From Pseudoscleropodium purum (taxonomy: Eukaryota; Streptophyta; Bryopsida; Hypnales; Brachytheciaceae): a stretch of DNA of 64,000 bases. A model generated the notes under the pieces. It was not told where the DNA came from, made no database searches, and worked only from the letters and a program-made list of their open reading frames with translations. A program made the translations under genes and the position numbers. Each line of letters starts with the position of its first letter. Within the stretch, counting starts at the first letter, position 1. Positions 5,019 through 60,921 of the stretch are shown here, one piece after another. The stretch spans positions 3,286,001 through 3,350,000 of the forward strand of contig OZ017805.1 of the NCBI GenBank assembly GCA_963969395.1, given 5' to 3'.

Positions 5019-5205
5019 TTAGTGTTAGAGTCCATGGGTATTGCTCGTAGTCAAAGGCAGCCCAATGTAGTTAGTTATCCCATATGGTTTGTGGATAACT
5101 AGGAAAGGCTTCTAGCTTAAGTTGAGCCCACTCATGTGACTTCGTGTATCGTTCTACCATCTAAGTAAAGCCTTTCTCTCATACATGACTTTGTAATCTC
5201 AATAA
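4949..5205 (+). repeat. Copia 3' LTR (right end uncertain)
   Basis: The LTR starts TGTTAGAGATTCTGTACATA after the polypurine tract. About 257 bp follow before the sequence changes to antisense Gypsy gag. I cannot find a matching CTAACA end, so the LTR may be cut on the right. No 5' partner exists in the window. Confidence 0.65.
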
Positions 5206-5208
5206 GTA

Positions 5209-5640
5209 TTACTTTAGAGCCTCTTCTTTAAATAGACCTTGAAAAATGCGCTTCTTTGCCTCAAAGTCTTCTTGATTTGCTATGGTAATGGACTCAAATT
5301 CATAAAACCAATCATCAACATCTTGGCTTCTTTCTCCTTTAAACCTACTATACTTCAAGTGCATGGAAACCACCATGTTGGAACTCCTAAGCTCAGATTC
5401 AACTTGTTCGTCTTCTTTGTCAAATGAAACAAGAACTTCATGAGTGAATATTGGATTTGGTAAGGGTGTAGTATCTACGTCCCCTCCTAGTGTACCCACT
5501 AGTAGTTCCTCTTCTGATTTGAAAAGACAATGTAGCCTTGGTTCTAGGTTAACACTAAGTAAGTTGGGAATAGGAATTTCTTCTCTTCTAATCCAAACAA
5601 ATCTTCTTTCAAAGGTTCCTCCTTTTTCTTTTCTTTTCAT
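5209..5640 (-). pseudogene. Gypsy-type gag N-terminal fragment
   Basis: An open frame of 143 residues starts at ATG 5,640. Its second half contains YSRFKGERSQDVDDWFYEFE and then QGLFKEEALK. This resembles the capsid helices of plant retrotransposon Gag proteins, which have a 'F.G....D...W...F' pattern followed by 'F...L...A..W'. The frame is cut exactly where the copia LTR begins, before the expected tryptophan. It lies about 190 bp after the primer-binding site, a normal leader length. Gag would form the particle shell around element RNA. The call is by pattern, so the lineage is uncertain. Confidence 0.6.
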
Positions 5641-5800
5641 GAGAAAGGTATCCTCTCAATCTACAAGTTCTTCTACTAAATGCAAGAAATTTCAACAACT
5701 AGGTCAACGCATATAATAAGTTTGACACTATTCAAGTTAGAATGATGACTCTTCATAGTAATCCAAATACTAACTGGAATCTCATAAAACTATCCTTAAA

Positions 5801-5819
5801 ATCCCCAATAGCGGTGCCA
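5801..5819 (-). other. Primer-binding site of unit A
   Basis: Eight bases inside the LTR end, the minus strand reads TGGCACCGCTATTGGGGAT. From memory, the site common in plant Athila/Tat-type Gypsy elements is TGGCGCCGTTGCCGGGGAT. The two agree at 14 of 19 positions and all five differences are transitions, as expected for decayed methylated DNA. A tRNA would prime minus-strand synthesis here. Confidence 0.6.
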
Positions 5820-5827
5820 CTTCGTTG

Positions 5828-8800
5828 TGTCATAGCACAAGGAAGCAGACATCCTCTTGTAGATGCTTAAAAGTGACTTAAACACCATTAAAATGACTCG
5901 AGTATTGTTCCCAAGAGATTTAGCTTGTAGTTCCTAAGAAGATGACCAAAATGGGATGTGGAAATCAACTTAACCCAAACACACCGGATGTAGAACCGGA
6001 AAGTGTATACTAAATTCTCAACTACTTCCAATTCTTTATTACCAAAATGTTATAATTTGTACCTATTCACCAACCAAAAAGGAATGTCCCAACATTGTAC
6101 TTTTTCTAGTATTTGTATACGGGTCTAATAATTAAGTAACCAAGTCAAAAGTTTAGCCTCTACACTAGAGGGGGCCGGTATTGGAATTGAGAAAGGATGC
6201 GTTGAATCCTACCCTTCCAGGAATTAAAGTGATTGGAGTTGCACTAAAAAAATAATTAAAAAAATAGAATGAAACTACTTCCTCACAACACATCCAAAGA
6301 TCAATCGAGACTAATAGGTAACACAGGAAACCCCTACCATCCCCATTTTACTACAACAACAAACCTATCCAATTTGAATCCCTTTGGCAAAGATTGGTAA
6401 CCAAATAACTAGAGAAACCCTACCCCTTTGCTCATCACCCCTTTTGGTTGTAATAGGACCTCATCAACACATTAACTAGCATATGTCCGGATACCTAAGG
6501 ATCATATCCAATCTTAAAGTGGCTATTCCACAAAGAAGTTCCCAAGTTTCAAGCAAGACCAAGACTTCACGTCTAGTACACACAATTTTCTGACCAGCTC
6601 AATTCAACTCCCAACACCGGATCCAGATAGAATCCGAGGATTATTCCTCCTTCCTAGTTCAACAAACCTAGCTATCCACACTAAACAATGGTTCTAGCAT
6701 TGTCGACATACCAATATAGTTCCAAGTGATCAATTCAACACCATAATGTGAAAGTTTGTAAATCAATTTGCTAAATGAAGGAAAAATAAAAGTATAAAAA
6801 CACTCCAGCATCAATCTAACTTCAGACCCTAAATAACTAGCCCCTTGGAGACCCTAAAAGCTCCAAAGGAACAAAATAAAGACCAAAGAATGACACATTA
6901 CATTCCCTAATAAAAAATGCACTCACTTCCTACTACATGGCCAATTCTACAAAAAGTGGATCTCAGATCTAAGAAATCTGGATCCGGGAAGTCCAAGTTC
7001 ATCACTACCAAAACCAACTAGCAAGTAACTTTCTAAGTCAAAAACTTTGGTTTCCATCCACCTACCTACTTCTACTCCTAAAATAACTAAAGCTAAGCTT
7101 TCTTTAACTGTTTTGGAGTTGCCTCCACTTGCTTGGATGCCCTCTTTTTAGATGGTTGTTTCCTATTGGCTAAAGCCTTCGTAACATGTGTCACCTTGCC
7201 TTTGCTTGGAATTTGAGTCATCACTTTTCCTTTTTTGCGTGGAGGAGAGGCAAGTTCTGGTTCCAAGTCTTCTTCCAACTCAACCGTACTATCCTCATTC
7301 TTTGTAGTCTCTAAAGACTTGTCTTCCTCCAATTCAAGCTCGATATGTAGAGTCGACTCCCTCGCTCACTTTACAGTCATCTTTTACTTCACTACATTTG
7401 TCACCTTCAGGGAAGGATTGGAAACCTTACTCTTTGGTGTCTCCAAGTCTTCTTCGACTATCTAGGAATGGCTTTTGGTTTGGGATCCAGGTGTAGACCC
7501 TTTTTTGGTTCGAAAGTCAACTCTGCTACTTGGTCAGGTAGATTGCGGAGTATTGTCTTTCGATGTGCTCTTGTCTTTCTGCTCCCTAGAGGTAGGCAGA
7601 GAGAGTGGTGGGGTTACTTTGGAAAGGGTTGCTTTTGTCAACCGGCCAGTTTTTTGGTTTTGGTTTTGGTTTCAAAATAGCCTCCATTATTATAACCCTC
7701 ATCTTGTCCGACATCTACTCCATCTTCTCTCCATAATCAACCAACACTAATACAATTTTGGGACCTAATGTGCCCCTTGTTTGAAAACCCTAGCCTCAAA
7801 CAATTTGGCCTTTTTCACCACGTCATCCGGATTCCCAATGAAGTCTCGGATTTGGTTAAAGGTTTACGTAGACTTAGATGAAAGTCTCTTCTCTCTAATT
7901 GCTTCTTCAGACTTCTACTTTAACCTAACCTAGAGAGCTTTCACCTGATTGGACAAATCCTCTACTTGATCCTCTAACTTCCTTATATTCTTGTCTTAGA
8001 GAAGATTCTCCACTTCTTCATAGATGTCTGATGGATTGGTCTTACCTATCAGCTCACATATTTTCCAAGTCACCTCCCTCTCACTCAAAATAATATCCCA
8101 AATTCCTTTCAATTCCTCTATAACATTACCAATGGAATCATTATTCTGGTCAAGCGCTCAAATATGATCCTTTTTCTCTACCCTTTCAACAACTCTCTTT
8201 CTTTTCTTTTGGAAAGCTACTCTTTCCTTTTCCAAATCTGAAGACCCCTCTCTTGATCCCTCTATTACAACTTCCAGTTCCAGTTTTGGACGAATATTAT
8301 ATTGAAGCATAACCTCAACAGCCTTATATGTCAACCTTTCCTTATTTTTCAACAAATCTAAGGACTGAAAGAGATGGAAGAGAAAAGGGCTCAAGCTAGA
8401 AGGTTTAGATTTCTCGACCATTGAACACATCTTTGCCACTACATCTCGGATTACTATCCCCCAATTTACTTTCCTATCCCTAGATACTATCCCCAAAATT
8501 GTATTGGCTACAGTGACCGTAATTTGAGTAGGTCTTTCTAGATTGAAGATTAAAACCAAAATTCTAACACCCCTCTAAACCTCAAGTTCTTACAATCCAT
8601 AACTACATATCCATCCTTAGGATTCATAGGATTGGAGAACTTGCCATTTTTATATTTTTCCGTTCGTGAAGCCCATCCTTTGCCCTTTTTGGTTGAACTC
8701 TCACAGTTCGCTCCCACTCACTGGACATATCCACCATAAGCTCCTACACCATCTCTTCATCTCTCAAGCTCTATAGAAGTTGCAAAAACCCTTGGCAACC

Positions 8801-9357
8801 AATTCGACGCAGATCCTCCTCCAAGAGTGCCTTCTCCTTCTTGCTCTTTGGTAAGCCAAGGACCACGGACTAGAGGTTAACTAGATGCAAGTCCTCTTTA
8901 ACTTTTGCCTTCACCATCATTCTCAGTGCACTCAAAGATAACCCTTAACTAGTCACTTTCTTTAGTCCAAAAAATATACTTAGAAATCTAAGGATACTCA
9001 CTTAGAAGGCAACTCGCCCTCCTATCTATATACTGGAGACCGGAATCTAAAACTCTCAAAACTCCTTCGCCACAATAAGAAAACAACAGAACAACTCCTC
9101 AAAGTCAAGAAGATCCAAATAGCAAATAAAGAAGGTAAGAGAATGGCCTCCATTTAGTTTTCCTGGTTAGGATTCCTTAACCATTGAATTGACCATTATG
9201 CATTCCAAACGGATTTTCTGTCCATTCAATGTTCCCTTCTTGCTCCTCATTATGTCTATTAGCTTTTGATTTGGTTTTGATTCTGTTTCCGATATTGCCA
9301 AATGTCTTGAAAATGCTTTTAGACAACTATCCTTGATTCTAGTTTGTAGTTAGGACA
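5828..9357 (-). repeat. LTR of unit A (old, 3.53 kb)
   Basis: The downstream end reads, on the minus strand, TTCCTTGTGCTATGACA, and old unit E ends almost identically (TTCCTTATACTATGACA). The upstream end reads TTGTCCTAACTAC on the minus strand and is a decayed match to TGTCGCAGCTTA. In between lies a broken form of the LTR protein gene. Length and layout match the young 3.3-kb copies. It is AT-richer and much more diverged than B, C and D. Confidence 0.65.
7093..8955 (-). pseudogene. LTR-encoded protein gene, old copy A
   Basis: A broken relative of the 552-residue LTR protein described for unit C. Readable blocks on the minus strand include EEDLRRIGCQGF near the start, then at 8,158-8,559 PTQITVTVANTILGIVSRDR and PFLFHLF. 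A coiled-coil part containing RDFIGNPDD follows, and then a basic end at 7,093-7,332 with SPPRKKGK and KQVEATPK. Each block aligns with the same region of B, C and E. Several stops and frameshifts separate them. The basic tail KQVEATP also occurs in E (K*VEGTP) but not in B, C or D, so the old subfamily had a different C-terminus. Confidence 0.7.
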
Positions 9358-20991: not shown

Positions 20992-20996
20992 AACTA
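20992..20996 (+). repeat. Target-site duplication AACTA of LTR B (left)
   Basis: AACTA directly precedes TGTCGCAGC and is repeated directly after GCTGCGACA at 24,300-24,304. A 5-bp duplication is typical of LTR-retrotransposon integration. Confidence 0.85.
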
Positions 20997-21269
20997 TGTC
21001 GCAGCTTAAAATTTTGATTTTCTTAGTATACACCAAAATAGGAACGGAAACTAGTCATTAGCTAACCGGATCCGATTAGGTGGGGAAGGAAAACTCAGAA
21101 TTAGCACGGAACGTGAAGTAGTGGGCTTCTTGGATCTAATCCGGTCAGGAGTAACTAACGACGGAAACGGAATGCAACACGGATTAGGTCTAGGACCGGA
21201 TGATGATGATGAACCGGATTATGATGGTAAACCGGATTCATGATGACAAACCGGAAAGGGTCCAGGGAC

Positions 21270-21277
21270 TATATAAG
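21270..21277 (+). promoter_or_regulatory. TATA box 1, upstream of the LTR ORF
   Basis: TATATAAG lies about 190 bp before the ORF start. Unit D keeps CTATATAAGG at the same place and unit C has CTATAAAAGG. It probably drives transcription of the LTR-encoded protein gene. Confidence 0.6.
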
Positions 21278-21447
21278 GAGGAGCTTTCACTGTTGCACCC
21301 CCTTTTAGAAACTCAACCTTGAGCATGCGCGGTTGAGTTTTTGTCGTTTGTGCGTCTGTGCGTTTGTGTTCTGTTCATTTTGATTCCGGTTGAGATCGGA
21401 GAGAGGAAGTGAGGAACGGGACGTGCGGCTAGAAGAGAGTGAGGTAG

Positions 21448-21453
21448 ATGTGA
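21448..21453 (+). promoter_or_regulatory. Minimal upstream ORF (ATG-TGA)
   Basis: A start codon followed directly by a stop sits 6 bp before the ORF's ATG at 21,460. Unit C has the same arrangement and D has lost it (ATTGAA). Such start-stop uORFs can lower translation of the following frame, but function here is only inferred. Confidence 0.4.
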
Positions 21454-21459
21454 GTGGGA

Positions 21460-23118
21460 ATGCCTCCGCTACGTAGGTCGAGACAAGCGAGTCCCTCTGC
21501 AAGTGAGGTGAAGCTCCGGAAAGTCATTCCGGTTATTCCCTCCACAGAGCCGGAAAAGTCTCAACTCATGGATGATCTCAAATCCATGGGTTGCGTAGGG
21601 TTTGCCGAGAAACCTTGGGGTTTTAGGGAGGAGAGAATGGTCAAGGAGCTCCTCGGAAAGTTGTCCAACCAGTTTGACAACACCGTGAGGGGAACTCCCG
21701 TCAGCTGGAACGAGGGGATGTGGAGAGCGGTTTACGGTTTCCGGGCAGGAGGTTTGGGAATGGCGAGCCGGAAGGATGAGTTTGTCCGAGGGAAGTTCAA
21801 GGGAGCCGTCAACCCGAAGGACGGATACGCGGTCGAGGATTGCTTGGATGACCGACACCGTCGGCTCCTGCAATTCCTGGTTCCGGTTCTTCACCCGGAA
21901 AAGCCGACCAGGGTGACGATCACCCTCGGCAACACCATTTTCGGTGCCCTCAGTGGTACCCGGAAAGTGGATTGGGCACGGATCATTTCCGATCTCGTGG
22001 CCCAGCTTGTTAGTAGGGTTGGGAAGAAAAGGGCCACTCCAGTGTGCCCTTATCTCTTCCACCTCTATCGGGAGAACCAAGTCCTCACCGATATGGAGGA
22101 CAGGGCGTGGAAGACGTAGGAAGTGCTCCTGAAGTATGGGGAGTCGGAGACGGATGATGAGGCGGAATCCGATTCCGGGTTAGACCGGGAGTCCAGCGAG
22201 GAAGAGGAGGAGCCGATGCCGCCGATCAAGCGACAGAAGCTGACGCCTCCACACAAGCGCGGGACGCCTCCCGGTCAAGACAAACCGGCCCCGGAGGAGA
22301 AACCGGAAGCCGAGAAGACCAATTCCGGAGGAGATCCGGATATGCAAGATCCGTTCAACGGTCTGATCAACGTCCTCTGCAACATCAGGGCGGATTGGGA
22401 GGTCAAGCACAGGACGCTTGCGGCAATCGGCAAGTTGGTGGGTGCGGCACCGGACAGCAAATTGGTGGAACAAGTGGCGGAGTGCATCACGAATCCGGAA
22501 GAGACCCGGAAGCAGGAAGCAGAGATCCGCCGGTTGCAGGAGGAGGTGGATAAACTGAAGGCAACTCTTTTTGCCTATCAGGAAGACGTGACGGCCGCCC
22601 GGGAGATGGCGGAAGAGACTCGGAAGATAGCCGAGCAGATCAAGGCGGTCCTGGGAGAGACCGGAACGGCCGCTGCCAAAGCAAAGCTCTTCGACGAGAA
22701 GATCCACGAAGAGAAGAAACTATCCGGTTCCCGGATGGTCCGGATTCTCGCGGACTTCGCTGAGCAGGTGGAGACGACAATGGTGGAGGGGCGGAAGGCA
22801 GCGGACCGGATCGAGGAGAGCAGCCGGAAGCTGACGGGAGCGACGTGCGACAAAGGTATTCACCTTTCGAACATCTCTCTACCGGATCTCTTTCCGGACG
22901 CGACCATTCAGAAGGATAGGAAGGATTGGACTCCTGAGTCCAAGAAGTCTGCACGGACTGGGACTCCGGGCACGAGACCGGATATCACCATCGACCTGGA
23001 GTCTCCACCCGGACCGAATCCTGCGGAGGGGGAACGGGTCCGGAATTTGAGTGAAGTCTTCGAGGAGCTAGTCCCGGAGGTCGGAAGCCCGACGATAGGA
23101 TCTAGAGTTGTAGGGTAG
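21460..23118 (+). pseudogene. LTR-encoded protein gene, copy B (one nonsense codon)
   Basis: A 553-codon frame from ATG 21,460 to TAG 23,116. It matches copy C along its whole length with no length change. Codon 220 is TAG (22,117-22,119) where C has CAG. Domains as in C: basic N-terminus (MPPLRRSR), conserved block at about 45-230, acidic stretch followed by IKRQKL, and a coiled coil at about 350-450. As it stands it would give a 219-residue product covering only the N-terminal domain. No function is known to me. Confidence 0.8.
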
Positions 23119-23268
23119 ATAGGATTTTAATTTCAGTTAGGAGTAGGAGCGGATCCGGATCCGGATCCGGCTCAACAGTATTAGGTTAAACCGGAAATTA
23201 GATTAGGGTGGCGGCGGACCCCACGGGTTTTCCGCTCCTTTTTGTGCTTTTAGGGTTTTTACCCTTTG

Positions 23269-23277
23269 TATATAAAT
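23269..23277 (+). promoter_or_regulatory. TATA box 2, downstream of the LTR ORF
   Basis: TATATAAAT lies 150 bp after the ORF stop and is conserved in C (near 27,420) and D (near 58,022). In an LTR this is the expected place of the promoter that makes full-length element RNA, about 1 kb before the LTR end. Confidence 0.5.
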
Positions 23278-24299
23278 CGGTTCCTGCGATGGGAACTGGG
23301 AGTTGTTCATTTTGCAAACTTCTTGTACTCTTCTATTCCCTTCGTTGTGTATCTCTCTCCAGCTCGACAGGATTGTATGATGTGGAGTTAGGATAGTACG
23401 AGTTGGTTTGTAAGTGATTTCTCCCCTTGGTGTTTATTTTCCGATCCTAGGTGCATGTGAGTAGGTACCGAAGAGTTGGGAGTGAACTTAGTTCCTCAGC
23501 ACGTCTAGAGTTTGAGATTCCGGGTGAGAAAGCCGTTGTTAGGCTAGGCGGGTAGGGAGGGATTCCTTAGCTGCGCTAGAACTCCCGGATGGGAAATCCG
23601 GTCGAGTGTCCGATCTCCTGTGAGGTCTCACCACCCGTATGGGTAACGGAAGAACTTTAGTTGATGTTGGAACGGACGGGTGCACTTGTAACCACCTGTC
23701 TTCGCACGGATCGGAAGTAGCATCAAGGTCATTGTAGTACGAGAGGGTCGAGTGTGGGGTCTTTGTGTGACCTACAACCCGGATTTCTATCTGGGTTGTT
23801 GTGAAGGACCAAACCGGATCCGGATTAGCTTAGGAGTTTAGAAGGTAGGACAGTGGGTCTTCAGCCACTATAAGTCACGGAAGGAGTGGTGGGCCTACCA
23901 CTCTCAAAATTAAGCGGCGACCCCTCTGATGGTGAAACAGAGGCAAAACCAAACCGGATAGGATTACGGGTACAGGATGACCATCCGGACCGGATTGGTC
24001 AGAACGGATTTCTAGGATCGGAAGTTGTGAGATCCTGGGATTTGGGTATTTGTACGGACCGGATAGTTAGTAGGACCGAAAGAAGGAGTAATCCGGTCTA
24101 TAGTTATCCGGTGTGGTGGTATTTTTGGTTCTAGATCTAGGACCGGAAAGTAAGATTGGCATACTGACTGAGCTTAACTGCTTAATAGAGCTAGATACTT
24201 CACAGGATCTCGTGGGTTCGATCTTTAGAGTCACTTAGTTATACTCTAGAGCGATTTTTGTGAGTATAATGGGGAATTGACCTGCCCTGTGCTGCGACA

Positions 24300-25721: not shown

Positions 25722-26394
25722 TTTCTCTAGACTCTAGTAGTGGATGGTGTCGCATGCGTAGTCTAGGCATAAGTATCTTTACACAGGAAAACGTAGTAAG
25801 ATGACACACATTATCATCCCAGGGAATTCTAGATGCCTTTCCAAACTCCACTATTTGGATGATGGCTTCTTCTTTTTTTGACTAATGTCTTTCACTTTCC
25901 TTTTTCGGAATCACTACTATTCGGATTCCAATCCGAATCTAGTATAACCTAGTTTTCCAATTTTGCCCCTTAACAAACTAGTTTTCAATTCTTTTGTTTT
26001 ACCATCAGAGGGTCCACTATTGATCTTTCGAGGGGTAGGGACTTCACCACTCTTGTCTATTCACTACACAAACAAAAGCAAAAAAAAACCCATCCAAGTA
26101 CTCAAGGTGTTGTAGCGCAAAAAGTACATCTAGATCCTCACAACATCTTGGATGGCCAATCTAGAATGTAGGTCACTCAGGACTACGTTCACTTCTCTTT
26201 ACTACAACAACAGATCTCAGATGTCCAGAACTAACAAGGGGGTAATCTTTCTAGGTGTAAGATGGATCCTAAGGTTGGAAGACCTTCTGGTGAGTAGGAG
26301 TTTCCTCTGATGGTCGCTAATCTCTATACATAATTGTTTCCAATTCTGGATCTGGACTCATACCACTCTTCACTAAAAATCGGTGAATTTGTCA

Positions 26395-29300
26395 TGTCGC
26401 AGCACAGGGCAGGTCAATTCCCCATTATACTCACAAAAATCGCTCTAGAGTATAACTAAGTGACTCTAAAGATCGAACCCACGAGATCCTGTGAAGTATC
26501 TAGCTCTATTAAGCAGTTAAGCTCAGTCAGTATGCCAATCTTACTTTCCGGTCCTAGATCTAGAACCAAAAATACCACCACACCGGATAACTACAGACCG
26601 GATTACTCCTTCTTCCGGTCCTACTAACTATCCGGTCCGTACAAATACCCAAATCCCAGGATCTCACAACTTCCGATCCTGGAAATCCGTCCTGACCAAT
26701 CCGGTCGGAATGGTCATCCTGTACCCGTAATCCTATCCGGTTTGGTTTTGCCTCTGTTTCACCATCAGAGGGGTCGCCGCTTAATTTTGAGAGTGGTAGG
26801 CCCACCACTCCTTCCGTGACTTATAGTGGCTGAAGACCCACTGTCCTACCTTCTAAACTCCTAAGCTAATCCGGATCCGGTTTGGTCCTTCACAACAACC
26901 CAGATAGAAATCCGGGTCGTAGGTCACACAAAGACCCCACACTTGACCCTCTCGTACTACAACGACCTTGATGCTACTTCCGATCCGTGCGAAGACAGGT
27001 GGTTACAAGTGCACCCGTCCGTTCCAACGTCAACTAAAGTTCTTCCGTTACCCATACGGGTGGTGAGACCTCACAGGAGATCGGACACTCGACCGGATTT
27101 CCCACCCGGGAGTTCTAGCGCAGCTAAGGAATCCCTCCCTACCCGCCTAGCCTAACAACGGCTTTCTCACCCGGAATCTCAAACTCTAGAAGTGCTGAGG
27201 AACTAAGTTCACTCCTAACTCTTCGGTACCTACTCACATGCACCTTGGATCGGAAAATAAACACCAAGGGGAGAAATCACTTACAAACTAACTCGTACTA
27301 TCCTAACTCCACATCATACAATCCTGTCGCGCTGGAGAGAGATACACAACGAAGAGAATGGAAAGGTACAAGAAGTTTGCAAAATGAACAACTCCCAATT
27401 CCCATCGCAGGAACCGATTTATATACAAAGGGTAAAAACCCTAAAAGCACAAAAAAGAGCGGAAAACCCGTGGGGGTCCGCCGCCACCTAAATCTAACTT
27501 CCGGTCTAACCTAATACTATTTAGCCGGATCCGGATCCGGATCCGCTCCTACTCCTAACTGAAATTCAAATCCTATCTACCCTACAACTCTAGATCCTAT
27601 CGTCGGGCTTCCGACCTCCGGGACTAGCTCCTCGAAGACTTCGCTCAAATTCCGGACCCGTTCCCCCTCCGCAGGATTCGGTCCGGGTGGAGACTCCAAG
27701 TCGATGGTAATATCCGGTCTCGAGCCCGGAGTCCCAGTCCGTGCAGACTTCTTGGACTCAGGAGTCCAATCCTTCCTGTCCTTTGCCATAGTTGCATCCG
27801 GAAAGAGGTCCGGTAGAGAGATGTCCGAAAGGTGAATACCTTTGTCGCACGTCGCTCCCGTCAGCTTCCGGCTGCTCTCCTCGATCCGGTCCGCTGCCTT
27901 CCGCCCCTCCACCATTGCCGTCTCCACCTGCTCGGCGAAGTCCGCGAGAATCCGGACCATCCGGGAACCGGATAGTTTCTTCTCTTCGTGGATCTTCTCG
28001 TCGAAGAGCTTCGCCTTGGCCGCTGCCGTTCCGGTCTCTCCCAGGACCGTCTTGATCTGCTCGGCCACCTTCCGAGTCTCCTCCGCCATCTCCCGAGCGG
28101 CCGTCACGTCTTCCTGATAGGCGAAAAGTGTTGCCTTCAGTTTATCTACCTCCTCCTGCAACCGGCGGATCTCGGCTTCCTGCTTCCGGGTCTCTTCCGG
28201 ATTCGTGATGCATTGCGCCACTTGTTCCGCCAAGTTGCTGTCCGGTGCAGCACCCACCAACTTGCCGATTGCCGCAAGCGTCCTGTGCTTGACCTCCCAA
28301 TCCGCCCTGATGTTGCAGAGGACGTTGATCAGACCGTTGAACGGATCTTGCATATCCGGATCTCCCCCGGAATTGGTCTTCTCGGCTTCCGGTTTCTCCT
28401 CCGGGGCCGGTTTGTCTTGACCGGGAGGCGTCCCGCGCTTGTGTGGAGGCGTCAGCTTCTGTCGCTTGATCGGCGGCATCGGCTCCTCCTCTTCCTCGCT
28501 GGACTCCCGGTCTGACTCGGAATCGGATTCCGCTTCGTCATCCGTCTCCGACTCCCCATACTTCAGGAGCACTTCCTGCGTCTTCCACGCCTTCTCCTCT
28601 ATGTTGGTGAGGACTTGGTTCTCCCGATAGAGGTGGAAGAGGTAAGGGCACACTGGAGTGGCCCTTTTCTTCCCAACCCTACTAACAAGCTGGGCCACGA
28701 GATCGGAAATGATCCGTGCCCAGTCCACTTTCCGGGTACCACTGAGGGCACCGAAAATGGTGTTGCCCAGGGTGATCGTCACCCTGGTCGGCTTTTCCGG
28801 GTGAAGAACCGGAACCAGGAATTGCAGGAGCCGACGGTGTCGGTCATCCAAGCAATCCTCGACCGCGTATCCGTCCTTCGGGTTGACGGCTCCCTTGAAC
28901 TTCCCTCGGACAAACTCATCCTTCCGGCTCGCCATTCCCAAACCTCCTGCCCGGAAACCGTAAACCGCTCTCCACATCCCCTCGTTCCAGCTGACGGGAG
29001 CTCCCCTCACGGTGTTGTCAAACTGGTTGGACAACTTTCCGAGGAGCTCCTTGACCATTCTCTCCTCCCTAAAACCCCAAGGTTTCTCGGCAAACCCTAC
29101 GCAACCCATGGATCTGAGATCATCCATGAGTTCAGCCTTTTCCGACTCTGTGGAGGGAATAACCGGAATGACTTTCCGGAGCTTCACCTCGCCTCTAGAG
29201 GGACTCGCTTGCCTCGACCTACGTAGCTGAGGCATTCCCACTCACATCTACCTCACTCTCTCCTAGCCGCACGTCCCGTTCCTCACTTTCTCTCTCCGAT

Positions 29301-29698
29301 CTCAACCGGAATCAAAATGAACAGAACGCAAACGCAGAGACGCACAAACGACAAAAACTCAACCGCGCACGCTCAAGGTCGAGTTTCTAAAAGGGGGTGC
29401 AACAGTGAAAGCTCCTCCTTTTATAGTCCCTGGACCCTTTCCGGTTTCTCATCATGAATCCGGTTTACCATCATAATCCGGTTCATCATCATCATCCGGT
29501 CCTAGACCTAATCTGTGTTACATTCCGTTTCCGTCGTTAGTTACTCCTGACCGGATTAGATCCAAGAAGCCCACTACTTCACGTTCCGTGCTAATTCTGA
29601 GTTTTCCTTCCCCACCTAATCGGATCCGGTTAGCTAATGACTAGTTTCCGTTCCTATTTGGGTGTATACTAAGAAAATCAAAATTCTAAGCTGCGACA
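26395..29698 (-). mobile_element. Unit C: 3.3-kb LTR with intact ORF, nested in unit F
   Basis: On the minus strand it starts TGTCGCAGCTTAGAATTTTG and ends CCTGCCCTGTGCTGCGACA, 3,304 bp, one base longer than B. By eye it is over 90% identical to B but lies in the opposite orientation, with about 2.1 kb between them. The 5-bp flanks (TGTCA and ATTAC) do not match, unlike B and D. Its insertion was therefore followed by a small deletion, or it arose by recombination between elements. Confidence 0.75.
27577..29235 (-). CDS. LTR-encoded 552-residue protein, intact copy C
   Basis: The only uninterrupted copy. I choose ATG at 29,235 because B and D keep it, and a GTG further up is not a plausible plant start. 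Residues 1-15 are basic and serine-rich (MPQLRRSRQASPS). Residues 45-230 form a conserved block with KPWGFREERMVKELL, HPEKPTRVTITLGNTIFGAL, KVDWARIISDLVAQL and PYLFHLYRENQVLT. Residues 228-255 are very acidic and are followed by IKRQKLTPPHKRG, a possible nuclear signal. Residues 350-455 are rich in E, K, A and L with heptad-like spacing, a likely coiled coil. The tail is proline-rich. It has no zinc knuckle, protease, polymerase, integrase or RNase motif. The block loosely recalls domains called 'putative plant transposon protein', but I cannot confirm that. A DNA- or RNA-binding accessory role for the retrotransposon is an inference. Confidence 0.8.
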   Translation of the reverse strand: MPQLRRSRQASPSRGEVKLRKVIPVIPSTESEKAELMDDLRSMGCVGFAEKPWGFREERMVKELLGKLSNQFDNTVRGAPVSWNEGMWRAVYGFRAGGLGMASRKDEFVRGKFKGAVNPKDGYAVEDCLDDRHRRLLQFLVPVLHPEKPTRVTITLGNTIFGALSGTRKVDWARIISDLVAQLVSRVGKKRATPVCPYLFHLYRENQVLTNIEEKAWKTQEVLLKYGESETDDEAESDSESDRESSEEEEEPMPPIKRQKLTPPHKRGTPPGQDKPAPEEKPEAEKTNSGGDPDMQDPFNGLINVLCNIRADWEVKHRTLAAIGKLVGAAPDSNLAEQVAQCITNPEETRKQEAEIRRLQEEVDKLKATLFAYQEDVTAAREMAEETRKVAEQIKTVLGETGTAAAKAKLFDEKIHEEKKLSGSRMVRILADFAEQVETAMVEGRKAADRIEESSRKLTGATCDKGIHLSDISLPDLFPDATMAKDRKDWTPESKKSARTGTPGSRPDITIDLESPPGPNPAEGERVRNLSEVFEELVPEVGSPTIGSRVVG

Positions 29699-30229
29699 AT
29701 TACCGTTTCAGTAATTCAAAGGCACCACGCGCAATTCTCTCGTCTTGTATCTAACATCATTACAATAGTACACCCTCAATCAGCTCAAGTTATCCGAAAT
29801 CAAGATTCCTCCTCACCCATTTTTTTCACATCTCAACACTCAAAACAACAAATCAACACAATCTGAAGATACGATTGGAATCAGAAGGTTCACCAAGTGA
29901 CTCAAATTAAAGAAGGGAATGAAATACAACAAAATAACTACTAGGATGGAATGAGAGGGAAACAAACTTGCCCGTCCTTAAAAACCAAAATCAAAACCAA
30001 AGTCAACGCCTAAAAAGCCAAAAAGGCACCCTGGAAATCAAGGCAACTAACTAGTGAACAACCTAGGATATCTAGAACATCCACAACCCAATTGTCTCGA
30101 CAAAACTGGAACCTCTAAAACGATCCGGAACCTGGATTCATGCTTAGAAATCCTATTCTTAATAACAATCCTACCTACCTACCTATACTCTATCTATTTT
30201 GCCATGCCTTTTTGGAGCTGCTCCTACTT

Positions 30230-32170
30230 TAACTGCTTGGAGTCTTCACCGAAGCCTTCACTGGCGTATTCTTTGTTGATGATCGAGTTTGGGGCTTCCG
30301 TGAAACCTTGGGAGGCCAATCTTCCGATTTCGTTTCTTCCTCAGATTCGGACTTCAATACCTCTTCTTCCGACTCCTCAATCTCTTATATCTCCACGTCT
30401 TTGACTTGTAGTGATTCATTCAATTCAATCTCAACACGATTCCGTTTCGGTGTCGACTATTGCATATGAGAAAAATCTTGCGGATGAGATCGAACTAGAT
30501 TCGTCATTACTCCAATCCGTGCATCAAAGTTGCTACAAACCATCAATTCAAGTACCATAAACTTTCAGGTCATGACTTTCCCAGGTGGTGGGAAAATCGG
30601 GACGAAAAACGCTTGTTTTACCAAAATAGACTTTCTACTTGTCCCTTTCTCCGGCTCAGGTCCTACTAGTCCTGATGGAGTCCGTACTTGGCTACTTGAG
30701 GGTCCTGCAACTGGAGTGAAGATAGACTTCAGTTCCTCCGATTGGAGCTGGATCGGGCCACTCAAAGCTTGTCGGATCAAAGTCTGTTGAACTGAAGTAT
30801 CCCGGAATATGCTCTTAGAGACTTCCAGAAATTCTTCTAAGTCGATAGCCCATTTTGGATCTAGCTATCCCAGCAACCTCCACATGTCCTTTAATACAAT
30901 CCCCATCCAGGCTTCAAAGTCGACCATGATCTTCACCATCCTAGATCCGGTCATATGCGTTTCCTTTGCCAACCAGGTAATGTAGAGCTTAACTCATATC
31001 ACCGTATGTTCCAAAACCATGACGAGTTCCTTGAAGTTGTCGACAAGTCAGAGAGCCTCCATCTCCTTTCATTTTGCTGTGTTCAACTCCTCCTCTGTCC
31101 ACTTGAGTTGGGACTTGAAGCTATCATTTTCCTCCTCCAGCTTTTGGATTTGTTCCTCCTTCTATCAAAACTCCTCCGGATTCGAGTGTTTCTAGATCTC
31201 CTCCAAAATTTGGTCCGGCTCTACCTTGAGTTTGTTTGCGATAAGAAGCATGTGATCCTCCAAGTCGCCATACATTTGTTTGGCCTATTGCACCCACTCG
31301 ATTCTGGCTTCAAAGAACTCGAGCTCTTACGGATGTTCCGGATCTAGTATCGGTTCCTTCCGTTTTGGTGTTGGCGCCTTCCCCTGTGTCGTTGGATCTA
31401 TGTACTTTCTACGTTTCCGGTCCACTACTTCTTCTTCCTCTTCTGGTTGTTCTTCTTCAGATTCCTTCTCCTCCTTCTCCGACTCTTCTATGAAGCCATA
31501 CTTCAGGATCTTGACTCCAATGTTGTATTCAATCATCTCCCTGGTACTCAAGACCTATTTGTGGTAATAAATGTAGAACAGATATGGCATGATAGGGTTG
31601 TGCTTTGCTTGGCCTACATGCTCTGCTAGCTTGCCCACGACTCCTTGAATCACTCTTCTCCAATAGACGATCTAGTCCTCCAAAGCCCCGAAAATGGTGT
31701 TGGCCACTGTGACCGTAATGTAGGTAGGCTTTTCCGGATACAAAATTGGAATAAGGAAATTTAGTACTTGTCTATGCCTCTTGTTTTTACAATCGCTAAT
31801 GGCAAATCCCTCCTTTGAGTGGGCTTGACTCCGGAACTTTCCGGTCAAGTATTTGTCCGCTTTTTCAGCTAGTCTGAGTTCATTCTTCTTAAACGAATAG
31901 ACATCTGTTCAAATGTCTTTCGTCCAAGCTACGAGTCGACTTCTCACTGTCAACTTGTACTGATTTGGAACTCCGTAAATGAGTTCTTGAATCATCTCCT
32001 CGTTCTTCATGCTCTACGGCCTATCTAACAACCCGACACATCCGATACATATGAGGTCCTCCTCTTATTGCGCTTGGTAACCCGGATCAGAAGGGATAAC
32101 CAGACAAATCATCTGGGCTATAACTCTTGATTTTCGTATAGCCAAGTCGACAGCCACCGCTATGAATCTC
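30230..32170 (-). pseudogene. LTR-encoded protein gene, old copy F
   Basis: Decayed relative of the unit C protein on the same strand. Recognisable blocks: CIGCVGLLDRP and EEMIQELI near 32,000-32,050, YPEKPTYITVTVANTIFGAL near 31,700, GVVGKLAEHVGQ then MPYLFYIYYHK near 31,600, an acidic stretch with KRRKYIDPTTQGKAP at 31,380-31,490, and a coiled-coil region after that. The acidic-then-basic linker is kept although its sequence differs from C. Several stops and frame changes make it non-functional. A segment at 30,565-30,780 stays open (71 codons) in the C-terminal half. Confidence 0.65.
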
Positions 32171-32632
32171 TGACAACTAACAAACCTAATTCGCTACTCC
32201 TCCTTTTGTTTCTTCCTATCTCAGTTGCTAATTCACCACTCTTTCTCGCAACTATACGTTCATCAAGTTCAATAAGGAGAAAGGGAAAAAAAGAGGAGTG
32301 GCGGTAGATTTAAGTACCCGGTGCGTGGCCAACAATTCCCGATGGAGAATAGGTAGATGGTTGTTCCCCTAACGGTCTCCTAGTTTCGTAGATCGGAAAT
32401 CTAGAATGTAGGTTTGGGAAATCCGGTACTTTTCTAGATTCCGGATCTATATCGAATTTGTTTCCATAACGTTACTAAGGGTTTTAGCAATCCGGAAACT
32501 GACTATTTCTATTATAGTTGTAGTATAGTGGAAATATCTAGAAGTTACCAAAAAATATGAAATTTGCAAATCTATCTAATCCAAATTCTAGACTAACTTA
32601 TCCGGTTTGAATTTTCGTACTCCCACAAATGG

Positions 32633-48885: not shown

Positions 48886-49072
48886 ATCAAAACTGAAATT
48901 GGTATAGTAATTCTTTTATAATGAAATTGGATTTAACACAAGTCTCGTTAAATGGCAAATTTATTTTTTTCCGCTCTAATTTGTAGGATATAGTATATTT
49001 TCAAATCTTAATTAGACTATTTTTGCATCCAAACAATAAGAATATTATGTTATAAATGAATTGCAAATTACT

Positions 49073-53926: not shown

Positions 53927-54555
53927 TGTGGAAATTTGGAAAATGAGAATGAAGTTACTTCAAATGGAATTTGAAGTAAAGGGGCCATTACTAGTATTTT
54001 ATTTTTTTTTAAGGATTAGAAACAAAGAAGTTACTAGTATTATGGATTAGGAAAACATAGAATCTCTTATTGAGATAAATTGGTTAAGGTCTTAAGGAAG
54101 AAAGTAGGTTTTTCGTCTTAACCGGAACTAGAATCCGAATACTCAGCCAAAATAATTCTAAAATTTTTTATAGTATTGGAATCAGATTTGGGATTCGTTT
54201 GGAAGCTAATGGACATAGATGGAAGAATAGGCAAAACGTTCAAATGAATAGAAGATTTGTTGAAATGGTACAATGGTAACATCCAACAGCAGTAGGAACT
54301 GGAAATCCAAGAAGAGAAAGGAAGGTTGTTTTCCCTCCTTGTCACACTTGTTTCTATATCTGGTTGCGCTTTAGACTTTCTGGTTGTATTTTCTTGCTAA
54401 CAAAAGGAAGGATTTGAGAGTTTCGAATTCTGGTTTCCGAGAATAAGGACAAGAAGAAGAGTTTCCATCTAAATGGGCTATCGTGAGGAAGTTGGATGTT
54501 TCTAGACTTGAGGAATTGGAAAGGTGGTGAGGTAATCCCGAATGAAGCAAAAGAC

Positions 54556-56400
54556 ATGGTAAAGATGGAGGTTGAGGAGGAACCGCATTCGGTTATCCTT
54601 CGGGCAATTGTTCCAAGCATTCTTAAGGACAAAGAAGAGAGGGCACAACTTGAATCAGACCTATGTTAGATTGGATGTCAAGGGTTTTTCCAACTGCCAT
54701 GGAATCTTCGTGATGTAGCCATAGTGCAAGAACTGATGGAGGAACAATCTAACAAGTGGTAGCTAATAAGGAGGGTGCAGCCATTGGAGTGGATGTCTGA
54801 GTATTAGGGGATTGTGTATTACTTCCCTAATATTAGAGAAGGATGGGCTTCCCGGACTAACAAGTTCGGGAGTGGTAAGTTCATGAATTCAGTTAATCCC
54901 AAGGATGGGTTTGTAATCACAAATTGTGAGGACTTGAGGGAGAGAAGAGTTTTGGAGTTCTTAGTTTCGATCCTAAACCCTAAGAGGCCCAACAAACTTA
55001 TAGTTACCTTAGCCAACATCATATTCAGAGCCCTATTTGAGGACCTGAAGGTGAATTGGGGAGTAGTAATCTAGGATGTAGTGGCCAAGATGGTAGGAGT
55101 AGTTGGGAAATCTAAACCTTCCGAGCTTAGTCCATTTTCTACCACTTGTATGAATCCTTAGATATTTTGAGAGAGAAAGAGAAGTCAACATATAAGGCTG
55201 CTCTAGTTATGCTAGAATTTGACATTCTTGAGGAAGCCAGAAAGGAAGAACAAGGAGAGGAGTCCCTAGAATTGGAAAAAAAAGAGGTAGCTTCTCATGA
55301 GAAAGGGAAAGGAGAGGTTCAGTGTTCAAAAGAAAAGGACCTAATTTGGAACCTAGACCAGAAGAGCGATGCCTTACGAAAAGTAATAGAAGAGTTGAAC
55401 CAAATCAAGAATCACATCACCATTGAGAGAGAGGTCACCAAGAAGATGTGTGAGCTGATGGGGGTTGGACCTTTGGTACTCTATTCAAAAGTGGAGATCC
55501 TTCTCCAAAACAAGGATGTCCGAAAGTTAGAAAAATGGATAGAAGAATTAACAACTCAAGTGAAAACCTTTCAAGATAAAGTGAAGTAGAAGTTTGAGGA
55601 GGTAGAAAAAGAGAGAAGGCTCTCTCCTAAGTCCGTGGAAACTCTTAACTGGATCCAAGACTTCATTGGGCATCCTAGAGATGAGGTGAATAAGGCAAAG
55701 TTTTTTAATGTGGGTGTTTACAAGGAGAGGTTGCAGCTACTTCCAAAACTAGTCTCATTCCTTGTGAGTTATACCAAAAAGATGGAGAGGACATTGGATG
55801 AGATGAGGTTAATAATGCAAGCGGGTCCTAAATCGGAAATGGAAAAAGGATCCGATTGATTGAATAGAGCAACGCCTTCTTGGTCAATTCCTATCTCCCC
55901 ACTCACTTCTAAGGAATGGAAAGAGAGGGGCATAGAGGTTACTTAGCCACCAACTCGTCCTAATAGCAAAGTAGAGTCTAAAACTAGAAAGGGATCTACA
56001 CTTAGATCCTAGACCTAGAGTCATTAAAAGTTAGAGGAGGAGAGTTTGGAGACGCCAAAGAGTAAGGTTTCTAGTCCTTCCCCAACCCATGCCTAGTACA
56101 ACCAAGTGCAAGCAGATCACAAAGAGATCTAGGGAGCATAGCCCAAATGTTGTGCTTGACTTGGAAGAAGAAGAGGAGTCTCTAGAGCTACTAGAGACAA
56201 AGGCAGTACAATTGAGTTAGAGGAGGAAACAAAATTGGAACAGACCTCTCCTCCTCAGAAGGAGAAGAGCAAGATTCCAGTTTCGACTAAAGGTAAGGTA
56301 GTACGTGGAGGCAAGGCGCAGCCAGTCGTAGGCAGCTAACAAAGAAAGGGGCTGCCAAATAAGTGGAGGGAACTCCAAAATGGGCCACGAAATCTTAGGG
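54556..56400 (+). pseudogene. LTR-encoded protein gene, old copy E
   Basis: Starts at ATG 54,556 (MVKMEVEEEPHSVILRAIVP). Conserved blocks are IGCQGFFQLPWNLRD (54,670-54,715), then at 54,814-55,074 ASRTNKFGSGKFMNSVNPKD and NPKRPNKLIVTLANIIFRAL, then LKVNWGVVI before TAG. A coiled-coil part at 55,146-55,589 and IQDFIGHPRDEVNKAKFFNV at 55,650-55,710 follow. Stops and frame changes are frequent. AT-rich codons, yet the same amino-acid pattern as GC-rich copy C. It is closer to A than to B, C or D. Confidence 0.7.
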
Positions 56401-56990
56401 TTAGTTATTTTAGGAATAGAATTAGGTAAGCGGAGAAAAAAACTAGGTAGGCACTTCTGTGTAGATGTACTTGGACATTCGGATTCGGATTTCTCAGATC
56501 TGAGATCCACTTTTGGCGGGTTTTATTTGTATATTAGAAGTCAACGGTTTTAGAATTAAGAGAATGTGATGTAGCATTCCTTTGGCCTTGTTTTATTTTC
56601 TTAGAAGCTTTTATGGTTACCGGGGGTGTTAGTTATTTAAGAACAGATTCTAGTTTGAAACTTTGGACATTTTTAGACTTTGGTATTTTCTTCCATTGGA
56701 TAAAGCTAAACTAATATTTCTACTTCATCTTGTTGAGTTTGTCACTTGATGTTGTGTTGGTATGCTGGCAATGCTAGAACCATTGCTTAGTGTAGGTAGA
56801 TGGTTTTTGTTGAGTAAAGAAAACCAGAAGTGGCCTTCTGATTCTAGTTGGATCCGGTTTCTAGTAGAAGACTTAATGTTATGGGAGGAATTTGACATAC
56901 TAGACAGGTGACTTGTTTGGACTAGTTATCGTGAGACTTCTGTATGGGATAGCCGCATTGAGATTAGGAGTGATCCTTAAAGGTTAGAGT

Positions 56991-56995
56991 ATATG
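56991..56995 (+). repeat. Target-site duplication ATATG of LTR D (left)
   Basis: ATATG at 56,991-56,995 is repeated directly after the unit at 60,267-60,271. Confidence 0.85.
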
Positions 56996-59900
56996 TGTCG
57001 CAGCACAGGGCAGGTAAATTCCCCATTATACTCACAAAAATCGCTCTAAAGTATAACTAAGTAACTCTAAAGATCGAACCCACGAGATCCTGTGAAGTAT
57101 CTAGCTCTATTAAGCAGTTAAGCTCAGTCAGTATCCCAATCTTACTTTCCGGTCCTAGATCTAGAACCAGAAATACCACCACACCGGATAACTATAGACC
57201 GGATTACTCCTTCTTCCGATCCTACTAACTATCCGGTCTGTGCAAATATCCAAATCCCAGGATCTTACAACTTCCGGTCCTGGAAATCCGTCCTGACTAA
57301 TCCGGTCCGGATGGTCATCATGTATCCGTAATCCTATCCGGTTTGGTTTTGCCTCTGTTTCACCATCAGAGGGGTCGCCGCTTAATTTTGAGAGTGGTAG
57401 GCCCACCACTCCTTCCGTGACTTATAGTGGCTGAAGACCCACTGTCCTACTTTCTAAACTCCTAAGCTAATCCGGATCCGGTTTGGTCCTTCACAACAAC
57501 CCAGATAGCAATCCGGGTTGTAGGTCACACAAAGACCCCACACTCGACCCTCTCATACTACAACGACCTTGATGCTACTTCCGATCCGTGCGAAGACAGG
57601 TGGTTACAAGTGTACCCGTCCGTTCCAACATCAACTAAAGTTCTTCCGTTTACCAACTAAGGCGGTAAGACCTCACAGGAGATCGGACACTCGACCGGAT
57701 TTCCCACCCGGGAGTTCTAGCGCAGCTAAGGAATCCCTCCCTATTTGCCTAGCCTAACAACGGCTTTCTCACCCGGAATCTCAAACTCTAGACGTGCTAA
57801 GGAACTAAGTTCACTCCCAACTCTTAGATACCTACTCACATGCACCTAGGATCGGAAAAGAAAACACCAAGGGGAGAAATCACTCGCAAACCGGCTCACA
57901 CTATCCTAACTCCACATCATACAATCCTGTCGCGCTGGAGAGAGAGACACAATGAGGAGAAGAGGAAGGCACAAGAGATTTGCAAAATGAAGACTCCCAG
58001 TTCCCATTGCAGGAATGGATTTATATACCAAATGTAAAAACCCTAAAAGTACAAAGCGGAGCGGAAAACCCGTGGGGGTCCGCCGCCACCCTAATTCAAC
58101 TTCTGGTCTAACCTAATACTGTTGAGCCGGATCCCGATCCGGATCCGCTCCTACTCCTAACTGAAATCAAAATCCTATCTACTCTACAACCCTAGATCCT
58201 ACTGTCGGGCTTCTGCTCTGCGGATCCAGTTGCTCGAAGACTTCACTCAAGTTCCGGTTCCGTTCCTCCTCCCCAGGGTCAGATCCGAGTGAAGACTCCA
58301 GGTCGATTGTAATATCCGGTCTCGTGCCCGGATTCTCAGTCCGTGTTGACTTCTTGGACTCGGGAGTCCAATCCTTCCCACCCTTCGGAACGGTCGCATC
58401 CGGAAAGGAATCCGGTAGCGAGAGGTCCGAGAGGTGTATCCCCTTGGAGCACGTTGCTCCAGTCAGCTTCCGGCTGCTTTTCTCAATCCGGTCCGCAGCC
58501 TTCCGTCCCTCCATCATCGCCGTCTCCACCTGCTCAACAAAGTCGGTGAGAATCCGGACCATCCGGGAACCGGATAGTTTCTTCTCTTCGTGGATCTTCT
58601 CGTCGAAGAGCTTCGCTTTGGCAGCGGCCGTTCCGGTATCTCCTAGGATGGCCTTGATCTGCTCGGCTATCTTCCGAGTCTCCTCCGCCATCTCCCAGGT
58701 GGCCGTCACGTCTTCCCGATAGGCAAAGAGAGCTGCCTTCAGGGTGTCCACCTCCTCCTGCAACCGGCGGATCTCCGCTTCCTATTTCCGGGTCTCTTCC
58801 GGATTGGTGATGCACTCCGCCACCTGTTCCGCCAACTTATTGTCCGGTGGCGCATCTACCAACTTTCCGATCGCCGAAAGCGTCCTGTGCTTGACCTCCC
58901 AATCCGCCCTGATGTTGTAGAGGAGGTTGATAAGACCGTTGAACGGATCTTGCATTTTCGGGTCTTCCCCGGAAACAGTCTTCTCGGCTTCCGGTCTCTC
59001 TTCCGGGGCCAGTTTGTCGTGACTGGGAGGCGTCCCGCGCTTGTTTGGAGGCGTCAACTTCTGTCGCTTGATGGGCGGCATCGGCTCCTCCTCTTCCTCG
59101 CTCGACTCCTGGTTTGAACCGGAATCGGACTCGGCCTCGTCATCCGTTTCTGACTCCCCATACTTCAAGAGGACTTCTTGAGTCCTCCACACCTTCTCCT
59201 CCGCGTCGGTGAGGACTTGGTTTTCCCGATAGAGGTGGAAGAGGTAAGGGCACACTGGACTGGCCCTCTTCTTCCCAACTCTACTAACGAGCTGCGTCAC
59301 GAGATCGGAAATGATCCATGCCCAGTTCACTTTCCGGGTACCACTTAGGGCACCGAAAATCGTGTTGCCAAGGGTGATCGTCACCCTGGTCGGCTTTTCC
59401 GAGTGAAGGACCGGAACCAAGAACTGCAGAAGCCGACGGTGTCGGTCATCCACGCAATCCTCGACCGCGTATCCGTCCTTCGGTTTGACGGCCCCCTGGA
59501 ACTTGCCTCGGACAAACTCATCCTTCCGGTTTGCCATTCCTAACCCTCCTGCCCGGAAACCGTAAACACCTCTCCACATTCCCTCGTTCCAGCGGATGGG
59601 AGTTCCTCTCACGATGTTGTCAAACTAGTTGGACAGTTTTCCGAGGAGTTCTTTGACCATTCTCTCCTCCCTAAAACCCCAGGGTTTCTCGGCAAACCCT
59701 AGGCAACCCATAGAGGTGAGATCCTCCATGAGTTGAGACTTTTCCGGCTCTGTGGAGGGAATAACCAGAATGACTTTCCGGAGCTTTACCTCGCCTCCAG
59801 AGGGACTCGCTGGTCTAGACCTACGTAGCGGCGGCATTCCCCCTTCAATCTATCTCACTCTCTCCTAGCCGCACGTCCCGTTCCTCACGTTCTCTCTCCG

Positions 59901-60266
59901 ATCTCAACTGGAATCAAAGCCTACAGCACACAAATGCGAAAACTCGACCACGCGCGCTCAAGCTCGAGTTTCTAAAAGGGGGTGCAACAGTGAAGGCTCC
60001 TCCTTATATAGTCTCTGAACCCTTTCCAGTTTGGTCATCATGAATCCGGTTCACCATCATAATCCGGTCCTAGACCTAATCCGTGTTGCATTCCGTTTCC
60101 ATCGTTAGTTACTCCTGACCGGATTAGATCCAAGAGGCCCACTACTTCACGTTCCGTGCTAATTTTGAGTTTTCCTTCTCCACCTAATCGGATCCGGTTC
60201 CCTAATGGCTAGTTTCCATTCCTATTTTGGTGCATACTAAGAAAATCAAAATTTTAAGCTGCGACA
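56996..60266 (-). mobile_element. Unit D: 3.27-kb solo LTR nested in unit E
   Basis: On the minus strand it starts TGTCGCAGCTTAAAATTTTG and ends ACCTGCCCTGTGCTGCGACA, flanked by ATATG on both sides. It is close to B and C in sequence. A 15-20-bp segment with two ACCGG-type motifs in B and C near the 5' end is missing, which explains the slightly shorter length. It is inserted in the 3' part of old LTR E in opposite orientation, so it is younger than E. Confidence 0.8.
58179..59837 (-). pseudogene. LTR-encoded protein gene, copy D (two nonsense codons)
   Basis: The frame from ATG 59,837 to the stop at 58,179 is exactly as long as in B and C (553 codons) with no frameshift. Two codons are TAG: 59,625-59,627 (codon 71) and 58,782-58,784 (codon 352). 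Both are CAG in C. Domains as in C. Amino-acid changes relative to C are scattered (for example RPASPSGG for RQASPSRG). Its upstream start-stop uORF is mutated, while the TATA box CTATATAAGG (near 60,003) is kept. Confidence 0.8.
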
Positions 60267-60921
60267 ATATGCTAGTCAGCTCGTGAAGAGGTTCTACTAC
60301 AATTGGAAGTGGGAGTTAGTATCCAGATACAATTTGTATAATTAACCAATTATCTTCTCATTGCTTGAGGGAACTAAGGCTTGGCTAGGTCTGTCGTTGT
60401 AGTAAGTGGGGGAAGTAGAGATTTCTTGTGTGACCTTTTGGTTTGGATTAAACATCTAGATGAGTTGTGAGGAAATACATGCTTCTTTGTTTGTGTACGT
60501 TGTTGTAATATAGCGGAACTTTAGTCACTTAAACATCTAGGAGGATAAGATTTACGCGTCCTTCCTTAAATCTAAGAGTAGATCTTTCTAATTTAGAGGA
60601 TAAACTTCTAACTTGGTTATTGAAGACTGAAATCAAAAGAGGTACAATGCTCAGACATTCTTTCCTTGTTATTGGAGAGTATGAAACAATATAGTTTGGG
60701 AAGAACATAGTGGTATCAATCAAGATATAAAATCTAAGACCATCCGATTGGGTACTTGGTAGGTTCTTGGGTTTGGTGAATTTGGATTTCCATATCCAGT
60801 TCCGAACACTTTTAAGGAATTACAAACTAAATCTCTTAGGAATGTTACACAAATCACTTAATAGTGTTTTTGACACATTTTTATATTAATTGAAGAATTT
60901 GTGCTTCCTTATACTATGACA

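Follow-up and report, generated by a model that had tools for sequence, protein, structure and literature searches.

Related systems and the locus

Long terminal repeats (LTRs) are usually regarded as the promoters and terminators of retrotransposons, and a long protein gene inside one is known from mouse mammary tumor virus (MMTV), where it is called sag. We describe a comparable placement in a moss; the elements themselves and a CTAAACC run agree with a plant source. A 64,000-nucleotide stretch of the Pseudoscleropodium purum genome (contig OZ017805.1, positions 3,286,001 to 3,350,000, forward strand; hereafter the window, numbered from its first letter) holds six related units, A to F, which are very probably LTRs of a Ty3/gypsy-like group with a conserved gene inside, an open reading frame (ORF) of about 552 residues whose product we call the LTR protein. 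MMTV sag shares this placement in the LTR, while its host and, as far as we know, its protein are unrelated.

The closest described proteins are found in another class of element. Sequence-specific anti-silencing has been described for DNA transposons, namely VANDAL, to which the accessible text of a review adds the Spm and MuDR proteins (PMC10706983). According to the available parts of two reports, VANC21 and VANC6 of Arabidopsis VANDAL bind differing short motifs that recur in tandem in the noncoding DNA of the elements encoding these proteins (PMC5735166, PMC10398659). Like VANC, the LTR protein is encoded by a transposable element, its predicted domain may resemble the DNA-bound VANC21 structure, and a short motif, its putative target, is enriched over its own element, partly in tandem and strongly so in B and D. 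Unlike VANC, whose VANDAL hosts are Mutator-like DNA transposons, it belongs to an LTR retrotransposon, within the LTR that flanks gag; it has no detectable sequence similarity to VANC, neither DUF1985 nor DUF287 is among the Pfam matches listed for 25 + 10 family members, and any shared activity would be by analogy.

In overall layout the units can be likened by description to the rice gypsy elements Retrosat2, RIRE3, and RIRE8, which, in the text available, have LTRs of ~3 kb, inverted TGT...ACA ends, and an extra, fast-evolving ORF0 (PMC3485330). That ORF0 lies upstream of gag-pol and is treated apart from the LTR in the same text, whereas the ORF here lies within the LTR; an internal ORF of the Retrosat2 type, between 5' LTR and gag, is not what we encountered, since the ORF is found inside solitary LTRs and flanks gag on either side. 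Sunflower Tekay likewise has an additional ORF in a plant LTR retrotransposon, set apart here by description only: in the accessible part of a January 2026 paper it is structurally likened to double-stranded RNA-binding proteins and discussed alongside VANC, and the question of whether such additional ORFs modulate the epigenetic landscape is left open (PMC12844716). With the phrases used on open-access text, the titles and abstract openings returned contained no plant LTR-encoded protein and no VANC-like or anti-silencing protein in a retrotransposon, and these phrases do not occur in the accessible text of Neumann et al. (PMC6317226). If the LTR protein is an anti-silencing factor, sequence-specific anti-silencing would extend to retrotransposons.

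A protein gene in LTRs on both sides of gag

Each of the six units has TGT...ACA ends and measures 3.3-3.7 kb once inserts are removed.

20997..24299, + strand: unit B, solo LTR of 3303 bp with ends TGTCGCAGC...GCTGCGACA
26395..29698, - strand: unit C, LTR copy with 97% identity to B, inserted within F
56996..60266, - strand: unit D, solo LTR with 90% identity to B, inserted within E
5828..9357, - strand: unit A, decayed LTR of 3530 bp, the 5' one when read along the ORF
53927..60921, + strand: unit E, A-lineage LTR, decayed and split by D
25748..32627, - strand: unit F, third-lineage LTR, decayed and split by C

A reading of these units made from the sequence alone had claimed shared ends, these sizes, and 5-bp target duplications, and remeasurement bears it out, with the note that the spans of E and F include nested D and C (their own lengths are ~3.7 and ~3.6 kb). 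Exact duplications flank B (AACTA, 20992-20996 and 24300-24304) and D (ATATG, 56991-56995 and 60267-60271), and the flanks of E (GCATG/ACATG) and F (GATGG/AATGG) match at 4 of 5 positions. Unit C, inserted at a colinear site of F, differs from most copies in lacking a target duplication (TGTCA/ATTAC). B, C, and D, with 89-97% DNA identity among the three, form one young family; A and E, colinear with 64% of their DNA identical, form an older lineage, and F a third, more distant one. By tblastn one and the same protein is found in all six units, in keeping with the earlier claim of one long ORF of ~552 residues per unit; it is full-length in C and decayed in A, E, and F.

21460..23118, + strand: LTR-protein ORF of B, 552 codons plus stop, with one internal stop at 22117-22119
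27577..29235, - strand: LTR-protein ORF of C, intact, 552 residues counted from ATG
58179..59837, - strand: LTR-protein ORF of D, 552 codons plus stop, with two internal stops
7777..8881, - strand: LTR-protein remnant of A, spread over three frames (tblastn)
54592..55907, + strand: LTR-protein remnant of E, decayed (tblastn)
30892..32160, - strand: LTR-protein remnant of F, decayed, domain order unchanged

The position of this protein relative to gag elsewhere in the genome is what identifies the units. The gag search gave 90 genome matches, and the search for the LTR protein, with E's domain as query, scored 150 of 2103 candidates; pairing counts between the two are lower bounds, and A's own remnant lies outside the 150. 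The LTR protein lies 2547-2564 bp upstream on the same strand at six of the 90 gag loci, and exactly 5885 bp downstream at three. Both sides are occupied at two loci, C48:21629679-21639437 and C40:9920291-9930066, both on the minus strand, the LTR-to-LTR period being 9216 bp at one and 9233 bp at the other. The geometry of unit B predicts the upstream spacing at ~2550 bp, made up of ~2246 bp between the matched domain and the end of the LTR and ~300 bp between an LTR end and gag, the latter distance taken from locus C40:13485761. At C49:3464446, which has the gag closest to A's, the LTR protein is 1808 bp upstream on the same strand; further gag neighbors within 10 kb comprise one on the same strand at 4557 bp and four on the opposite strand, and 5852 bp upstream of yet another gag is a solitary copy (L032). 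By protein coordinates, gag is thus bracketed at two loci by two LTRs in direct orientation. Since the protein stands on both sides of gag there, elements of ~12.5 kb with the ORF in both LTRs would exist, which is what the sequence-only reading had proposed to look for in full-length elements.

Within the window, unit A supplies the corresponding neighborhood, with a site resembling a primer-binding site (PBS) and a gag remnant.

5802..5819, - strand: PBS-like site of A, 8 bases past the LTR end, 13/18 to TGGCGCCGTTGCCGGGGA
5212..5655, - strand: gag remnant of A, downstream of A on the same strand

We take TGGCGCCGTTGCCGGGGA to be a tRNA-Asp-type primer site, to which all five mismatches are transitions. 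A score of 13/18 is reached at three places on the two strands of the window, the other two being inside the ORFs of B and C. The gag ORF of A has 59 homologs (best E 1e-21), 28 of them with PF03732 (Retrotrans_gag), and the fragment itself gives no direct Pfam match. The earlier observation that A is followed by a primer-binding-like site and a gag-like ORF therefore stands, and these two features, the PBS and the gag homologs, support assignment to a Ty3/gypsy-like group. The fixed spacing of the ORF around gag, along with A and its PBS-like site and gag, leaves us with little doubt that the units are LTRs carrying the ORF.

An LTR end plus PBS pattern has two matches in the genome, a count that is uninformative since the reversed control pattern also has two; a longer version matches at the same two places with zero control matches, and both places adjoin gag. 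A 1.2-kb stretch near one of them contains, on the opposite strand, a B-type unit that was probably inserted there later as a nested copy, and it neither supports nor refutes the LTR reading. Many of the genome gag matches are near-identical 537-residue ORFs with tied scores, which points to recent activity of a gypsy family. A Ty1/copia element at 921-5018 on the + strand, with two long ORFs containing gag, integrase, and reverse transcriptase (RT), adjoins the gag remnant of A and probably interrupts the element to which A belongs.

The predicted protein and the motif array

The LTR protein is predicted to consist of a globular alpha-helical N-terminal domain, an acidic stretch and a basic cluster, coiled-coil-like helices, and a disordered tail, and it is probably nuclear. 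Long helices at residues ~299-463 of the model agree with its earlier description as a coiled-coil protein, a description that passes over the best-conserved part, the N-terminal globular domain. The closest fold match to the predicted domain, a tentative one, is VANC21; Foldseek against the PDB and viral sets returned nothing at E 0.001, the PDB searched by sequence gave weak coiled-coil matches or nothing, and the viral_contigs and genome_contigs collections held no relatives. One homolog (P0181) is called "rRNA processing protein Krr1/Pno1" in its source, which is probably a mislabel.

The noncoding part of the LTR is dense in a short word, (A)CCGGAT, and contains two TATA-like boxes.

21195..21255, + strand: 18-bp tandem repeat with ACCGGAT, 3.3 copies
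21270..21277, + strand: TATA-like box 1, TATATAAG (TATAAAAG in C), ~190 bp upstream of the ORF start
23269..23276, + strand: TATA-like box 2, TATATAAA, ~150 bp downstream of the ORF stop

In noncoding B, CCGGAT occurs 22 times (mean 0.85 and maximum 4 in 200 shuffles) and ACCGGA 16 times (mean 1.04, maximum 5), and noncoding D has 18 and 13; 36 kb of other window sequence has 3 and 2. In the whole units CCGGAT occurs 31 times in B and 27 times in D, and no 6-mer exceeded 14 in 200 shuffles. A single genome copy (L001) carries 14 ACCGGAT versus 10 in 127.7 kb of flanks, sampled at 32 of 39 copy loci with the seven that have nested or neighboring units left out. The motif is spread across the whole B-type LTR, including around both TATA-like boxes. 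Its CpGs are mutated less among young copies (38/868 vs 216/2395), which is not so in the comparison with D (4/21 vs 12/59).

Both boxes are kept at matching places in B, C, and D, so that the ORF does lie, as had been suggested, between two putative promoters. In the simplest scheme, box 1 would drive an mRNA for the protein and box 2 the genomic RNA. The ORF would then fall in the U3 (unique 3') region of the LTR, and each LTR, solo LTRs too, would be a self-contained gene. Were the protein to bind the (A)CCGGAT copies in the LTR that encodes it, it could counter DNA methylation or silencing of its own family as VANC does for Arabidopsis VANDAL. Together, the modeled fold and the motif packed into the LTR suggest that the protein may help the element resist host silencing. 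For the whole chain, from the ORF-bearing LTR through box-driven expression and motif binding to anti-silencing of its own family, we would put the chances at close to even.

Another possibility, which we consider unlikely though the most durable of the alternatives, is that the LTR encodes a transcriptional activator that binds the motif and recruits transcription machinery to box 2 in the manner of a retroviral trans-activator, any demethylation being secondary. Motif copies near both TATA-like boxes would suit such a protein, as would its composition: of 151 homologs, 113 have a run of five or more aspartate or glutamate residues and 143 have basic clusters. Against this, the motif covers the whole LTR rather than one promoter, and VANC21 is reported, in the text available, to strip silent marks and not primarily to activate (PMC5735166).

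A structural role is less probable still. The protein could be a coiled-coil, gag-like accessory in particle assembly or nuclear import that happens to sit in U3, with the motif enrichment a by-product of repeat growth in the LTR; the long helices of the model fit this, and plant gypsy elements such as Retrosat2 can have extra ORFs beside gag-pol, which the accessible text places internally (PMC3485330). However, no capsid-like match is among those listed by the fold searches, and no capsid protein covers the N-terminal domain in two VIA-align lists, which does not exclude one, and a simple pattern scan of the 151 homologs finds no CCHC, protease, or RT motif. A structural role alone also leaves 22 motif copies against an expected 0.85 unexplained.

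Solitary copies in the genome

Some observations weigh against the anti-silencing scheme and against the LTR reading beneath it, and they concern the decayed units and the state of the genome copies. In F the most frequent words are ATCTAG (15) and CCGGAT (10), and in A it is ACCAAA (19); these exceed their own shuffles and stay below the shuffle maximum of any 6-mer (16 and 25, respectively). E has no clear enriched word relative to shuffles. One guess is that the ACCAAA of A is a CCGGAT-type motif after methylation decay. A search of the genome (313 Mb) with unit B scored 40 of 1132 candidates, B itself and 39 near-full copies with 96-98% identity, which are not strictly those closest to B, as C (97%) is absent from them. 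All 39 fetched copies are solitary, each with its own flanks, and no PBS was found after any of them, the best score being 10/18.

Exact 5-bp duplications flank 34 of the 39 copies, with a 4/5 match in L033 and none in three; an origin by chance is excluded by 39 further near-full copies with this record. In L003 an exact GCAGG duplication appears if a 14-bp doubled 3' end (CCTGTGCTGCGACA twice) is counted, and the doubling may record an unusual integration end. In four pairs of copies lying in related, offset stretches (L013/L016, L008/L026, L027/L035, and L036/L039), the flank of one copy is continuous where its partner is inserted, with junction overlaps of 2-5 bp.

Such copies would be expected of a DNA transposon or stand-alone mobile unit with TGTCGCAGC ends, and we favored that explanation while the 39 fetched copies looked solitary, with PBS scores no better than 10/18 and common flanks in the copy pairs that fit insertion of single units. 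We dropped it once the ORF was found on both sides of gag, at fixed spacing and on the same strand at two loci and upstream at six; A followed by a PBS-like site and gag also speaks against it, and we now hold it to be very improbable. The sequence-only reading had equated a majority of lone copies with a DNA transposon: the copies fetched do stand alone, literally so, yet the conclusion does not follow, because the ORF flanks gag on both sides elsewhere. Given elements of that structure, the solitary copies are explained by solo-LTR formation, and the fetched copies are mostly solo LTRs from a Ty3/gypsy-like group with LTRs of 3.3-3.7 kb and elements of ~12.5 kb.

On the LTR reading, solo LTRs, commonly seen as relics, could go on expressing an element protein. 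It is a reasonable, if somewhat doubtful, extension that each solo LTR with an intact ORF is a complete family-specific de-repression gene, the many solo LTRs then acting together as a permanent supply of, and sink for, the factor across the genome.

Several arrangements among the copies are worth recording. L036 and L039 lie within or against units of opposite orientation, making palindromic clusters, and L034 adjoins part of another unit in the same orientation. L020, with an upstream purine run and no duplication, was considered as a 3' LTR and dropped after a look at the 8 kb upstream (L040): that sequence contains a 740-residue ORF at 4696-6918 on the - strand that by eye resembles the DUF7869 stretches of the window, and no gag-pol is visible among its nine ORFs of at least 80 residues (judged by eye, without Pfam). 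The DUF7869 family fragments in the window itself, at 43359-43853 and 51473-51748, both on the + strand, represent another mobile-looking gene. Old copies cluster on C49, the 12.7-Mb contig to which the window belongs: of the 62 best matches to E's domain, 43 fall there. Our guess is that recombination may be low in this region, as it would be on a sex chromosome.

Selection on the LTR-protein ORF

The ratio of nonsynonymous to synonymous divergence (dN/dS) is 0.247 for B-C, 0.251 for B-D, and 0.239 for C-D, below every one of 600 neutral simulations (two sets of 300 runs, one with a median of 0.61 and a minimum of 0.37, the other with 0.65 and 0.41). Within the family, the corresponding polymorphism ratio (pN/pS; 40 copies compared with L001, D left out) is 0.58 for singletons, 0.41 for variants in 2-3 copies, 0.23 in 4-12 copies, and 0.30 in 13 or more, while 14 nonsense variants each occur in three copies at most and one of the 40 copies has a frame-changing ORF length. 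The 552-residue ORF is kept in 24 of 42 copies. Sequence comparison thus shows purifying selection on inherited variants of the ORF, and the lower pN/pS of shared variants and rarity of nonsense variants indicate that the protein seems to matter to propagating copies. That the LTR and ORF are real and the ORF a functionless passenger is barely credible: a broken ORF in 18 of 42 copies would agree with it, but dN/dS of 0.24-0.25 under all neutral simulations, lower pN/pS in shared than in single variants, and conservation across relatives at 26-74% identity (15 homologs) do not.

Synonymous divergence in the ORF of B, C, and D is 0.29-0.33 versus 6-8% divergence in the flanking noncoding LTR (pairs with D), and because synonymous sites diverge several-fold more, the noncoding LTR may itself be constrained. 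Elsewhere in the window, positions 49072-49304 hold a 27-bp tandem array of 8.6 copies with 100% matches.
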